Below are positions 19,405 through 23,417 of a stretch of DNA of 33,073 bases, piece after piece. The DNA lies in assembly GCA_013694695.1 (NCBI GenBank), contig JACDBX010000074.1, forward strand, positions 1-33,073. The letters run 5' to 3'. This stretch comes from Gemmatimonadales bacterium (lineage in GTDB: Bacteria > Gemmatimonadota > Gemmatimonadetes > Gemmatimonadales > GWC2-71-9). Each line of letters opens with the position of its first letter. The stretch's first letter is position 1. The notes beneath the pieces are model-generated. The model saw only the letters and a list, made by a program, of their open reading frames with translations, had not been told where the DNA came from and did no database searches. The position numbers and the translations under genes are program-made.

Positions 19405-20460
19405 CTAGCTGCGCCTGGCCAGTCCCGCCTTGGCGTCGGGTGTCGCAATTTCTTCGAGCGCCCGGTACGCGGCCGTCCTCACCGATGCCTCGGCGTGGCG
19501 GAGCAACCCCGTCAGCGCCGGCACGGCCCGTTCCATCCGGCGGAGCCCCGCAACTTCGGCGGCACCAGCCACCAGGTCTGGCCGATGGCTGCCCAGCGCG
19601 GTGACGAGCGCGTCGGTGGCATGCGGCGCCGCGACCAGCGCGTCGATGTAGGCACGCCGTTCTGCGCGACCCGGGGCGCCGTCCAGCGCCTCGACCAGCG
19701 CAGTTGCCCCCTCGTTGCCAAGTGCATGAATGGCGGCGAGGATCTCCGGCGGAACCGGTGGGCGCGGCAGCTCACGCACGAGTGAATCGACGACGTGTGG
19801 CGGTGCAACACGCCGACGCTCCCGCGAGATGATGGTGCGCGTTGCGTCGTCGCTTGAGGCATCGAGTTGCTGCAGGTCGAGGACCACCCGTGCGACCCGC
19901 GGCCAGTCCCTCGCCTCGACGGCAGCGGCACCAGCGTGCAGCAACGGATCCAGTCGCGTCGAGAACTCGGCCCGATCGGCTTCTCGGGTCACCGCCGCAG
20001 GGACGGCGTCGCGCCGCGGCACGGAGCCCGGAATATCAAGGAGCGCGGCCCGGAGGGCGTCGCTCATCGCCGGTCGCCTCCCGGCAACCAGGAGCGCACC
20101 GGGCACGCTCGACGTGAGCGCGTCGCGAACATGATCGGCCGACGGAAAGAGGCCGGGTGCCGACGCCATGATCTCGGCGACATCGCCCCACTGCCTCGGA
20201 CCCAGGCCAGCGGGAAGCTGGATCCGGCTGGTGTCGTGCTCGATCATCGCCGTGCGCATCAGCAGTGCCCCAGGTGCGTCACCGCCCACGGGAACACCGT
20301 TGACTAGAAGCCGCTCGTCATCGAGCTCGAAAACGACCACGCTCCCCGCGGCAGCCCGGGTGAGGAGGCCAAGGACACGTTCACTGCCCACCGGGTCGAC
20401 CGACGAGGCTCGGACTTGGTAAATGGCAGCGGCAAACAGCGCGGTCAGCGGGACTGGCAC
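19405..20460 (-). CDS. HEAT-repeat domain protein
   Basis: C-terminal ALGNEGATALVEALDGAPGRAERRAYIDALVAAPHATDALVTALGS...AVPALTGLLRHAEASVRTAAYRALEEIATPDAKAGL. Confidence 0.75.
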   Translation of the reverse strand: MPVPLTALFAAAIYQVRASSVDPVGSERVLGLLTRAAAGSVVVFELDDERLLVNGVPVGGDAPGALLMRTAMIEHDTSRIQLPAGLGPRQWGDVAEIMASAPGLFPSADHVRDALTSSVPGALLVAGRRPAMSDALRAALLDIPGSVPRRDAVPAAVTREADRAEFSTRLDPLLHAGAAAVEARDWPRVARVVLDLQQLDASSDDATRTIISRERRRVAPPHVVDSLVRELPRPPVPPEILAAIHALGNEGATALVEALDGAPGRAERRAYIDALVAAPHATDALVTALGSHRPDLVAGAAEVAGLRRMERAVPALTGLLRHAEASVRTAAYRALEEIATPDAKAGLARRS

Positions 20461-20467
20461 GTCTTGA

Positions 20468-22123
20468 CTACCTCAGGCGGTGTGCTGCGAGGGCGGCAGC
20501 GACGTCTCGAAATCGGTCATAGGGGGGTTTCAGGTGCAATGCCCGGGCCACAATGAGCGTTGCGGGCGCGGGGAGGACACCATCGTCGAAGATTGCCTCG
20601 AACGGCACCACCGCCCGTACGGCGCGTTGATCGACGCGAAAGGCTCGGTTGAGTGCCTCACGGGCAAAATTCGGATCGTGCGTGACGACCAATGTTGACA
20701 CCCCACGCTCTCGCCGATCCAGCACCATGTCGACCACGCGCCGCCGCGACGCATCGTCCAAACCTGCAGTCGGCTCGTCGAGCAGCAGCAGCTCGGGTTC
20801 CGCAACCAGCAAGGCAGCCAGCGCCACCAGCCGTCGCACCGGCAGCGGAAGATCTCCGGGGTGGCGGTCGCCCATGTCCAGCAGGCCGAGCTGGTGAAGC
20901 GTGGCGTCGACGCGCGCGTCGATGCGGGCAGCGTCCCACCCCGCGTGTTCTGCCGTGAATCGACATTCCTGCTTCACCGTGGTGGCAAACAATTGCCGCT
21001 CTGGCTGCTGGGAAAGCATTGCCACACGCGGTGCCAGGTCTTCCGGGTGGCGACCGACGGTGGGCTGGTCGAGAACGATCACCGATCCGTGTCGCGGATG
21101 CTCCAGCGCCATGGCCAGTCGAAGCAGCGTCGACTTGCCCGCGCCGTTGGCGCCGAAGAGTCCACATGCATCGCCGCGGTGCACCGTCATCGTCGCGGCG
21201 CGGAGCACGTCACTCGTTCCGGAGTAGCCGAAGTCGACCTCCCGCAGCTCGAAGACTGGTGACGAATCCACCACCACCGCGGCGGGCGCGGCACGATGGT
21301 CCGTCGCGACGGTGTCGATCTGCGCGAGGAGTGCCGGCGGCGTGATCGCCCGGGGTGCCGGGAGCCCGGCTGCGGCCGCCAGGGCAGCGGTGTCGGTGGT
21401 GCCCGCGCCGTGGGCGTGCATCGCGTCGCCCGCGAGCAACTCATGCGGCACGCCGTCCAGCACGGCCCGTCCATGAGCAAGCACCACAACCCGGTCGGCG
21501 AGTGGGTACATCGCCTCGGCGTCCTCACTGGCAACCACGACCGTCGCGCCGTCGTCGGCGAGTGAGCGGAGGATGCGCTGGACCATCCGTCGGGTCCCGT
21601 GATCGAGCGCGGAGAATGGTTCGTCAAGAAGCCACGTGCGGGGCGCGGCAACGGCGAGTGCCGCGATGACAACGCGCTGCGTTTCGCCGCCCGAAAGGGT
21701 GGACGGCGCACGGTCGGCGAGCGCGGCCAGGTCGAAGCGACCGAGTGCGTCATCGACCCTGCTGAGGATCTCCTGTCGCCCGAGGCCAAGGTTCATCGGC
21801 CCCACGGCGAGCTCGGCGCGCACGGTCGGCGCGATGCCACTGAGCTGGAGCTGTGGTGATGGCGCCAGGTAGCCGATTGCGAGTGCGAGGGGTGAGTCTC
21901 GGGCTGGGTCGGTGTCGTCCACGAGCACGCTTCCGCGCCGCTCGCCGCCGGTGAGTCGGGGAGCGAGTCCTGCGGCAGCGAGCAGTAAGGTGCTGGTTCC
22001 GCTTCCGATCGCGCCGGTGAGCCAGGTCACTCGGCCCGGAATGATGTCCAGGTCGACATCATCCAGCGCTGCGAGGGATTGTGCCGGATATCGGAACCAG
22101 AGCCCGCGCACCGCAATCGTCAT
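20468..22123 (-). CDS. Fused double-ATPase (two NBDs) energy-coupling-factor ABC protein
   Basis: Two ABC domains: NBD1 GAIGSGTST / LSGGETQR / TWLLDEPFSALD; NBD2 GANGAGKST / LPLPVRR / LLLLDEPTAGLD / VVTHD. ATG 22123 overlaps the ecfT stop. Confidence 0.92.
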   Translation of the reverse strand: MTIAVRGLWFRYPAQSLAALDDVDLDIIPGRVTWLTGAIGSGTSTLLLAAAGLAPRLTGGERRGSVLVDDTDPARDSPLALAIGYLAPSPQLQLSGIAPTVRAELAVGPMNLGLGRQEILSRVDDALGRFDLAALADRAPSTLSGGETQRVVIAALAVAAPRTWLLDEPFSALDHGTRRMVQRILRSLADDGATVVVASEDAEAMYPLADRVVVLAHGRAVLDGVPHELLAGDAMHAHGAGTTDTAALAAAAGLPAPRAITPPALLAQIDTVATDHRAAPAAVVVDSSPVFELREVDFGYSGTSDVLRAATMTVHRGDACGLFGANGAGKSTLLRLAMALEHPRHGSVIVLDQPTVGRHPEDLAPRVAMLSQQPERQLFATTVKQECRFTAEHAGWDAARIDARVDATLHQLGLLDMGDRHPGDLPLPVRRLVALAALLVAEPELLLLDEPTAGLDDASRRRVVDMVLDRRERGVSTLVVTHDPNFAREALNRAFRVDQRAVRAVVPFEAIFDDGVLPAPATLIVARALHLKPPYDRFRDVAAALAAHRLR

Positions 22124-22851
22124 CCGAAGCGCCACCACCCCGCGGCTGCCACCAGGAGCAGTGCAGCCCAGCGGATCACGCGGTCGACCGATCGGTCCCG
22201 CGGCGGATCGATCGGCGTACGCGGGCCGACCAAGGTCAGGCCGCGAGTCTCGAGCGCGAGTGCCCGATCGTCGGCCTCCATCACCGACATCAACATCAAC
22301 GGGAAGACGAGTGCCGGGATGGCACGCGCCTTCGACAGCATCGTCCTGCCGGTCCTGAGCCCGCGGGTGCGTTGCGCCTCTCGCAGGCGCACGGCCTGCT
22401 CCCGCAGGCGATCGGCGGCATCGAGCGTGGCGACCACGACGAACGCCATGTCGAATCGCCAGCCGCGCGCGATCGCGGCCTGGAGGAACCGGTGGGGATC
22501 GAAACTGGTCGCAAACACGAGCGACGCGGTCACGATGGCCGCGAGCCGGAGCCCCTGCTCCAGAGCCCACGACAACCCGGTGGTGGAGAGCGCCACGCCG
22601 AGGACCACGGTTGTGCGGGGCTCATCACCCATCACTCCATGCATGATGAGGAGCAGGATCCAGAACGGCGCGCACACCGCGATGCCGAGCGCTACGCCGC
22701 GTGCGCCACCGGTCGCCACCGCGATCACGACGGTCACGATGTAGACCAGGAGCGTGCCCGCCGGCGGCGGCGCGAGGATCGCCGTGGCCGCAAGAGCGAG
22801 GGCCACCGTTGCCGGTGTGAAAGGATGGGCACGACGGGCGAGACTGGTCAC
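22120..22851 (-). CDS. ecfT: Energy-coupling factor transmembrane protein (EcfT-like)
   Basis: Multiple TMs; VVATLDAADRLREQAVRLREAQRTRGLRTG and ALALETRGL coupling-helix-like xRG motifs; adjacent to ABC ATPase and S-component. Confidence 0.88.
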   Translation of the reverse strand: MTSLARRAHPFTPATVALALAATAILAPPPAGTLLVYIVTVVIAVATGGARGVALGIAVCAPFWILLLIMHGVMGDEPRTTVVLGVALSTTGLSWALEQGLRLAAIVTASLVFATSFDPHRFLQAAIARGWRFDMAFVVVATLDAADRLREQAVRLREAQRTRGLRTGRTMLSKARAIPALVFPLMLMSVMEADDRALALETRGLTLVGPRTPIDPPRDRSVDRVIRWAALLLVAAAGWWRFG

Positions 22852-23417
22852 CGGCCCACTGCGCGGGCTGCGAGGGGAAACCGACCGAGAATCCGCAGCG
22901 GGAGCGAGCGGAGCAGGATCCCGAGCAGGATGAACGAGATCGTCTTGTCGAGAATGTCGGTCAGCAATGAGGCTGTGGTGACCGCCGCAGCGAGCGAGAA
23001 CCCGGCTGAGCGGAAGAGTGCCCCCACTGCGGTGACGCCAGTGGCCGTGACGCCGCCAAAGAGGAAGTACGAGATCGCGGCCGACGTCAGGCCGCACGCG
23101 ACGCCGCAGGCCGCGCCCCAGGCCGCACTCCGCGACGTGTTGCCGAAGCCGCCGCGTGCGGCCGCGAGTGCCGCCAGCGCCGCGATCAGCCACTGGATCG
23201 GCGTGAATGCCAGCCACACGTATCCGCGAAGCATCCCCGACAGCAGTTGGCCGAGGGTACCGACCAGGAGGCCGCCGCTGAGTCCGTCGAGGACCGCCAC
23301 CAGCGAGGTGCCGAGGGTGTCGAGGTACACCGGAAGGGCCAGTTCGCTCGCCACCTGGCCCACCACCAGGTTGATCGCAACGGCTGTCGGAATGAGCGCG
23401 AGGAGACGTGGCGACAT
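22848..23417 (-). CDS. Putative ECF transporter S-component, substrate unknown
   Basis: ~6 TM; ALIPTAVAINLVVGQVASELALPVYLDTLGTSLVAVLDGLSGGLLVGTLGQLLSGML; GTGA overlap with ecfT. Confidence 0.78.
   Translation of the reverse strand: MSPRLLALIPTAVAINLVVGQVASELALPVYLDTLGTSLVAVLDGLSGGLLVGTLGQLLSGMLRGYVWLAFTPIQWLIAALAALAAARGGFGNTSRSAAWGAACGVACGLTSAAISYFLFGGVTATGVTAVGALFRSAGFSLAAAVTTASLLTDILDKTISFILLGILLRSLPLRILGRFPLAARAVGR

Follow-up and report, generated by a model that had tools for sequence, protein, structure and literature searches.

The window analysed here is the whole 33,073-nucleotide contig JACDBX010000074.1 of a Gemmatimonadales bacterium (assembly GCA_013694695.1). Its reverse strand carries an operon for a predicted energy-coupling factor (ECF) transporter, whose ATPase fuses two nucleotide-binding domains (NBD1 and NBD2) and appears to have one ATP site that is consensus and another that is degenerate. 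The genes of the locus are:

22848..23417 (-), S component, a membrane substrate-binding protein of 189 aa; first gene of the operon
22120..22851 (-), EcfT/CbiQ transmembrane coupling (T) component, PF02361; second gene
20468..22123 (-), fused double ECF ATPase of 551 aa, with two PF00005 ABC_tran stretches (Pfam); NBD1 spans residues ~1-265 and NBD2 ~286-551, joined by a disordered linker (~277-284)
19405..20460 (-), HEAT-repeat protein gene, 7 bp downstream of the ATPase, PF13646 (5.9e-13)

The gene order is S-T-A, the ATPase being the third gene of the operon, and neighbouring genes overlap: the S stop and T start share GTGA, and the T stop and ATPase start share ATGA. This order was unchanged in the sampled orthologous loci, and the operon is kept across an order. 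The T component scores 44.5 bits against PF02361 CbiQ (cut-off 25), is the sole CbiQ match in the genome (a 2.8-Mb assembly, 94% complete), and keeps both Arg-Gly coupling motifs, QRTRG and LETRG. The ATPase finds its best NCBIfam matches in TIGR04520 (241.5 bits) and TIGR04521 (239.9 bits), both below the curated equivalog cut-offs (315/330). Judged by the profile scores of canonical family members, NBD1 is EcfA1-like and NBD2 EcfA2-like. The S fold, the T component with two Arg motifs, the EcfA-type pair and the single operon are group I traits, and by these sequence criteria the locus is a dedicated (group I) ECF module of importer type. Two consensus ATP sites, which are typical of characterised ECF transporters without being definitional, are not present here, as can be seen from the motifs of the two NBDs:

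21989..22015 (-), NBD1 Walker A GAIGSGTST, Thr (codon ACC, 21995-21997) in place of Lys, degenerate
21845..21877 (-), NBD1 Q-loop region IGYLAPSPQLQ, Pro in place of Gln, degenerate
21674..21697 (-), NBD1 signature LSGGETQR, consensus
21617..21637 (-), NBD1 Walker B TWLLDEP, catalytic Glu kept
21524..21526 (-), NBD1 H-loop position in VVVASEDAEAM, Glu (codon GAG) in place of His, degenerate
21128..21154 (-), NBD2 Walker A GANGAGKST, consensus
21008..21010 (-), NBD2 Q-loop Gln (LSQQPERQ), consensus
20828..20854 (-), NBD2 signature position DLPLPVRRL, degenerate
20771..20791 (-), NBD2 Walker B LLLLDEP, consensus
20678..20680 (-), NBD2 H-loop His (VVTHD), consensus

All NBD1 and NBD2 motifs quoted in the initial annotation of this locus, together with its Thr and Glu codons, recur exactly in the translation of 20468-22123 (-). 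The composite site made of the NBD1 Walker A, Q-loop and H-loop and of the NBD2 signature is degenerate, and the opposite composite site is consensus. Because lysine is absent from the whole NBD1 of the window (residues 1-265), no other Lys can stand in for the missing one, and a rescue of NBD1 from elsewhere in the domain, which would have spoken against the initial annotation, does not occur. That the degenerate site is 'dead' is a prediction from these motifs.

Conservation of the lesions was followed in orthologues drawn from genomes of the same genus, family, order and class. A scan of the phylum (399 genomes) gave a clear gap in score, with about 40 genomes at 308 to 380 bits, five at 231 to 265, and all others at 209 or less. 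Motif columns were read off alignments; the main clade consists of 40 distinct orthologues, all of them from Gemmatimonadota and taken from independent assemblies, and the genomes behind the relatives named here are mostly metagenome assemblies. All lesions occur together in 40/40 orthologues, whether fused or split. The Lys position of the NBD1 Walker A is occupied by Thr (18), Ala (14), Cys (7) or Ser (1), and in no case by Lys. The Q-loop Gln is replaced by Pro (29), Ala (9) or Ser (2), and the H-loop His, found in none, by Ser (13), Asp (8), Glu (7), Pro (6), Thr (5) or Gln (1). The NBD1 signature reads LSGGE in 39 members and LSSGE in one, the D-loop Asp is kept throughout the clade, and the A-loop Tyr is kept in 39/40; apart from its Lys, the glycine loop of Walker A is retained too. 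On the NBD2 side, the Lys, Gln, Glu and His are intact in all 40, and the signature position follows the pattern D-[LV]-[PS]-x-[PA]-x-R. The proposal that the lesions fall in one composite site, leave the other consensus and are conserved together thus holds throughout this clade, in fused and split members alike. The loss on the NBD1 side is nevertheless incomplete: Walker A, Q-loop, H-loop and the NBD2 signature are affected as described, but the NBD1 Walker B Glu is kept in 32/40 members (Asp in 7, Asn in 1).

Between close relatives, the ratio of nonsynonymous to synonymous substitution rates (dN/dS) was 0.12 to 0.23 for NBD1 and 0.13 to 0.29 for NBD2, and the identity of NBD1 to its orthologues is at least that of NBD2. 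Since purifying selection on NBD1 matches that on NBD2, NBD1 is not decaying; as judged from codon evolution, the lesions of the degenerate site are maintained under purifying selection. Sequencing or assembly error, already considered unlikely in the initial annotation, and chance are ruled out by the recurrence of these lesions in 40 orthologues from independent assemblies and by this purifying pattern in NBD1.

We then placed these proteins in a wider family of 112 distinct members, in which relatives from Chloroflexota and Actinomycetota were found via an NBD2 fragment or the S component. The NBD2-fragment search used the Q-loop motif as its pattern, and these relatives are among the matches listed; those listed share the S-T-NBD1-NBD2 operon. 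Most have a canonical NBD1, with only the NBD2 signature altered (for example NPYDLSPTWRK and HPHHLSLSERK). The second Gly of LSGGQ is absent from the NBD2 signature in 111/112 members, the exception being L200 (Streptomyces), with LSFGE. Among the matches listed, CbiO-type proteins outside the family that match on the Q-loop pattern have mostly retained LSxGE, and the loss of the NBD2 signature is therefore a family trait. The other NBD2 motifs are nearly invariant: Walker A Lys in 112/112, Walker B Glu and H-loop His each in 111/112 with one gap, and Q-loop Gln in 110/112, an invariance that is partly ascertained, as the motif served as search pattern for some loci. Loci found by genome searches are unaffected by this ascertainment.

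For NBD1, 45 of the 112 members keep Lys, Gln and His, 14 have lost only the Gln, 4 only the His, 8 both Gln and His, and 41 all three; Lys loss without loss of both Gln and His was never seen. Outside the main clade, five further members from Gemmatimonadota, namely L073, L074, L117 and L118 (from another family) and L075 (from another family in the class), keep the NBD1 Walker A Lys while Gln, His and the NBD2 signature are gone. On trees built by quick searches with motif columns excluded, and whether the model was simple or a mixture, Lys loss maps as a single change on a clade supported at 99 by the SH-like approximate likelihood ratio test (SH-aLRT), Gln loss as 9 to 10 changes and His loss as 6. 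The nesting of Lys loss consequently rests on one event and not on 41 independent ones. The canonical outgroups did not fall on one side of any branch; the direction of loss was read from them, and the root is not firm. Read in this way, the motif distribution suggests a nested order of loss, with the NBD2 signature altered nearly family-wide, Gln and His lost repeatedly, and the Walker A Lys lost last, once on the tree. The view that the lesions are locked together is thus valid for the 40 Gemmatimonadota members and does not extend to the wider family, where they accumulate step by step; such nested accumulation explains the pattern and does not refute it.

Three further observations bear on the order and extent of loss. 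In the NBD1 of family members, the Q-loop position that is acidic in canonical NBDs (NPDDQ) is aromatic or aliphatic (NPFNQ, TPWTQ, SPALQ), a change found in the window (21845-21877) and in L251, a Chloroflexota member with only the NBD2 signature altered, and its relatives; it may have altered an acidic contact to the coupling arginines of EcfT before Gln, His and Lys were lost. The Chloroflexota locus L260, which lies outside the tree, has an NBD1 with Walker A GGNGSGRST (Lys replaced by Arg) and both Q-loop and H-loop lost, its NBD2 being incomplete in the locus; it may represent a second independent loss of Lys. Finally, L155 (Thermomicrobiales) and L209 (Chloroflexi) carry pairs of ECF-type ATPases but no S component recognisable as belonging to this family; their NBD2 signatures read LSRST or LPKGL, and the NBD1 H-loop is changed in L155. 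One-sided decay may thus be wider than the ECF family of the window.

The initial annotation had described a single-chain module. The window ATPase is indeed fused, as are seven of the eight orthologues of its genus, the eighth being split, but this proved incidental: the two NBDs are separate adjacent genes in 92/112 family members. The asymmetry is independent of fusion, because fusion status changed about seven times on the tree.

The fused chain was modelled with AlphaFold2 (AF2) from 13 fused homologues, with a predicted local distance difference test score (pLDDT) of 90.7 and a predicted TM-score (pTM) of 0.89, confidence being low only at the linker (277-284). In a Foldseek search of the PDB, the top match across both NBDs was the ATP-bound DppD of Mycobacterium tuberculosis DppABCD (8wdb_D, TM 0.75). 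Apo and substrate-bound DppD gave 0.59 to 0.60, an ATP-bound entry with a DppA mutation (8xfc_D) 0.60, and nucleotide-bound P-glycoproteins about 0.7. The model supports a closed head-to-tail NBD1:NBD2 dimer, in which each site would be formed by the Walker motifs of one NBD and the signature of the other.

Among known systems, the closest lesion map is that of Pdr5 and Cdr1, fungal pleiotropic drug resistance (PDR) transporters of ABCG type, which is near-identical: in NBD1 the Walker A Lys is replaced by Cys, the H-loop is lost and the signature is intact, while in NBD2 the signature is degenerate and the Walker A intact (PMC7756269, PMC4890005). Even the Walker A of Pdr5/Cdr1, GRPGAGCS (PMC4890005), resembles the GAGCST-like loops of seven orthologues of the window ATPase. 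Pdr5 and Cdr1 differ in being exporters with an unrelated membrane fold, and in Pdr5 the Walker B Glu of NBD1 is gone as well, a residue that is mostly kept here. The 551-aa chain consists of two NBDs only, without ABCG-type membrane domains, and its membrane partner is of CbiQ type, so that it is not a PDR protein; the likeness of lesions is convergence, not homology. Among exporters, degenerate sites are a familiar feature (PMC7756269). In importers, the fused ATPases RbsA and NupO have one degenerate site without a Walker A Lys (PMC11466899). RbsA and NupO (Bacillus subtilis) thus share with the window ATPase an import function (predicted in the case of the window), two NBDs per chain and the type of degenerate site, whereas their degenerate Walker A lies in the second NBD and they depend on a solute-binding protein, without S or T components.

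The initial annotation had taken TAP, CFTR and TM287/288 as its model. These type I exporters do have one consensus and one degenerate composite site, and to this extent the comparison stands. Their pattern, however, keeps the Walker A Lys and replaces the Walker B Glu (in part also PMC7756269), their losses being typically of that Glu and of the H-loop, whereas in the clade of the window Lys is lost in 40/40 and Glu kept in 32/40. They were therefore downgraded as closest analogues, Pdr5/Cdr1 and RbsA/NupO being closer. In human proteins, every degenerate site has an altered NBD2 signature (PMC7756269). Compared with canonical ECF transporters (EcfA/EcfA'/EcfT/S, such as ECF-FolT2 of Lactobacillus delbrueckii), the subunits, the S-T-A logic and the heterodimeric ATPase are the same, and the difference is that one ATP site has been dismantled. 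The most likely reading is that of an ECF importer working with one site, which has converged on the pattern of the fungal Pdr5/Cdr1 and of RbsA-type importers. Searches in a collection of open-access papers, not all of them aimed at this question, turned up no account of a degenerate ECF ATPase; subscription journals and preprints lay outside their scope.

We conclude that NBD1 and NBD2 probably form the motor of this importer as an obligate heterodimer, in which one ATP site is consensus and the other degenerate. The heterodimer is needed for any consensus site, since NBD1 is without the Walker A Lys and NBD2 without the signature. The operon, the motifs, their co-conservation, the purifying selection and the closed packing predicted for the two NBDs are the observed part of this model. 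In the proposed cycle, the consensus site (Walker A, Walker B, Q-loop and H-loop of the EcfA2-like NBD2, with LSGGE of the EcfA1-like NBD1) would bind and hydrolyse ATP. No hydrolysis would occur at the degenerate site (NBD1 Walker side and NBD2 signature), which would be either empty or hold a nucleotide statically by means of the A-loop Tyr and the glycine-rich loop. One hydrolysis event per cycle would drive the opening and closing of the asymmetric dimer, and this motion would shift the two coupling helices of EcfT, so that the S component is docked and released. We infer here the hydrolysis stoichiometry, the direction of import and the S-component cycle.

Three points weigh against this model. 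In L. delbrueckii, mutation of either single Walker B Glu abolishes ATPase activity and transport (PMC10368641), and a one-site ECF transporter must therefore couple differently. The NBD1 Walker B Glu retained in most members would make residual chemistry possible at the degenerate site. Lastly, the AF2 model is of the chain alone, without nucleotide, T, S or membrane partner.

In the cryo-electron microscopy structure of L. delbrueckii ECF-FolT2, the ATP of EcfA is unhydrolysed beside the S component and EcfA' holds ADP (PMC10368641). If EcfA corresponds to EcfA1, as we infer, the site dismantled here may be the one held unhydrolysed in ECF-FolT2. A bolder version of the model, to which we give a little less than an even chance, is that of a natural one-ATP motor, in which the degenerate site is empty and each cycle spends just one ATP on closing the dimer, expelling the S component and resetting it. 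Were this true, the need for two sites in L. delbrueckii would be peculiar to a lineage and would not hold for ECF transport in general. What each of the two ECF ATP sites does, and in which order, is said to need further study (PMC10368641). A conserved module with one site erased, accompanied by living intermediates (signature altered; signature together with Gln and/or His lost; all lost including the Walker A Lys), makes this question directly testable. It also provides a bacterial importer counterpart of Pdr5, and suggests that one-sided dismantling arose in unrelated ABC machines.

Another explanation, which overlaps in part with the one-site heterodimer, is that the degenerate site is regulatory, sensing nucleotide (a permanently bound ATP, or the ADP/ATP ratio) and gating the consensus site. 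Pdr5 and related exporters have been suggested to use their degenerate sites in this way; the degenerate site of Pdr5 still influences its canonical site, activity is abolished when all motifs of its nucleotide-binding site 1 (NBS1) are made canonical, and degenerate sites can be allosteric (PMC7756269). The retention of the NBD1 A-loop Tyr (39/40) and of the remaining glycine loop is in line with this idea. The replacements of Lys, Gln and His, however, vary freely (T/A/C/S, P/A/S and S/D/E/P/T/Q, respectively), which suggests that contacts were lost and that no new conserved contact with a ligand was gained. We regard a regulatory site as a serious possibility, if somewhat doubtful.

It is unlikely that the S-T-A set has been repurposed and is no longer an importer, for instance as an S-component-based sensor tolerating low ATP turnover. 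A link between S-fold proteins and receptors is reported (PMC11109136), no substrate is assigned and a HEAT gene lies downstream, but the set is full, both coupling Arg motifs are present and one consensus catalytic site is strongly conserved. Group II ECF systems have shared modules and interchangeable S components. With such sharing, and with the many other ABC ATPases of this genome, a canonical EcfA from elsewhere could replace NBD1 in vivo and make the degenerate site irrelevant; the single CbiQ/EcfT match, the adjacent and overlapping S, T and ATPase genes, and the presence of NBD1 and NBD2 in one chain in the window and in 7/8 same-genus orthologues make this very improbable. Ordinary decay, with NBD1 drifting to loss in a transporter on its way to a pseudogene, would account for several missing catalytic residues and their variable replacements, but is hardly credible given the low dN/dS (0.12 to 0.23), the open frames, an NBD1 identity at least equal to that of NBD2, the NBD1 signature and D-loop Asp kept across the clade, and an operon conserved across the order.

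To return to the proposed one-site importer, its S component offers few clues to the substrate. Of 43 aligned S orthologues, 37 match PF12822 ECF_trnsprt (best 2.6e-06) and 23 match PF07155; the window protein has no Pfam match at family cut-off and matches PF07155 weakly (E 0.002). Its AF2 model (pLDDT 89.4, pTM 0.86) has as leading Foldseek matches in the PDB only S components, namely ThiT, RibU, FolT and PanT (prob 0.80 to 1.00, with E-values above 0.03). An S profile run against the PDB gives FolT alone, at E 0.004, and so no substrate call is made. As to a riboswitch upstream, no Rfam family reached the gathering threshold in the window and 26 related loci.

Two neighbouring genes are leads only. 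The HEAT-repeat gene is likely co-transcribed with the ATPase, and genus members as well as many relatives within the family have such a gene at this place too. The other lead is a PfkB/ribokinase-like kinase gene, which lies immediately after NBD2, overlapping or abutting it, in four Chloroflexota loci (L137, L140, L148 and L245; 4582-5553 in L137, 4603-5556 in L148). The imported compound is possibly sugar- or nucleoside-like and trapped by phosphorylation; the kinase remains a mere lead because none was found beside the Gemmatimonadota copies. Chloroflexota members also often have two tandem S-domain matches ahead of T (S-S-T-A1-A2), in some cases within a single long open frame, as seen among loci L257, L267-L271, L273-L275 and L277-L280.
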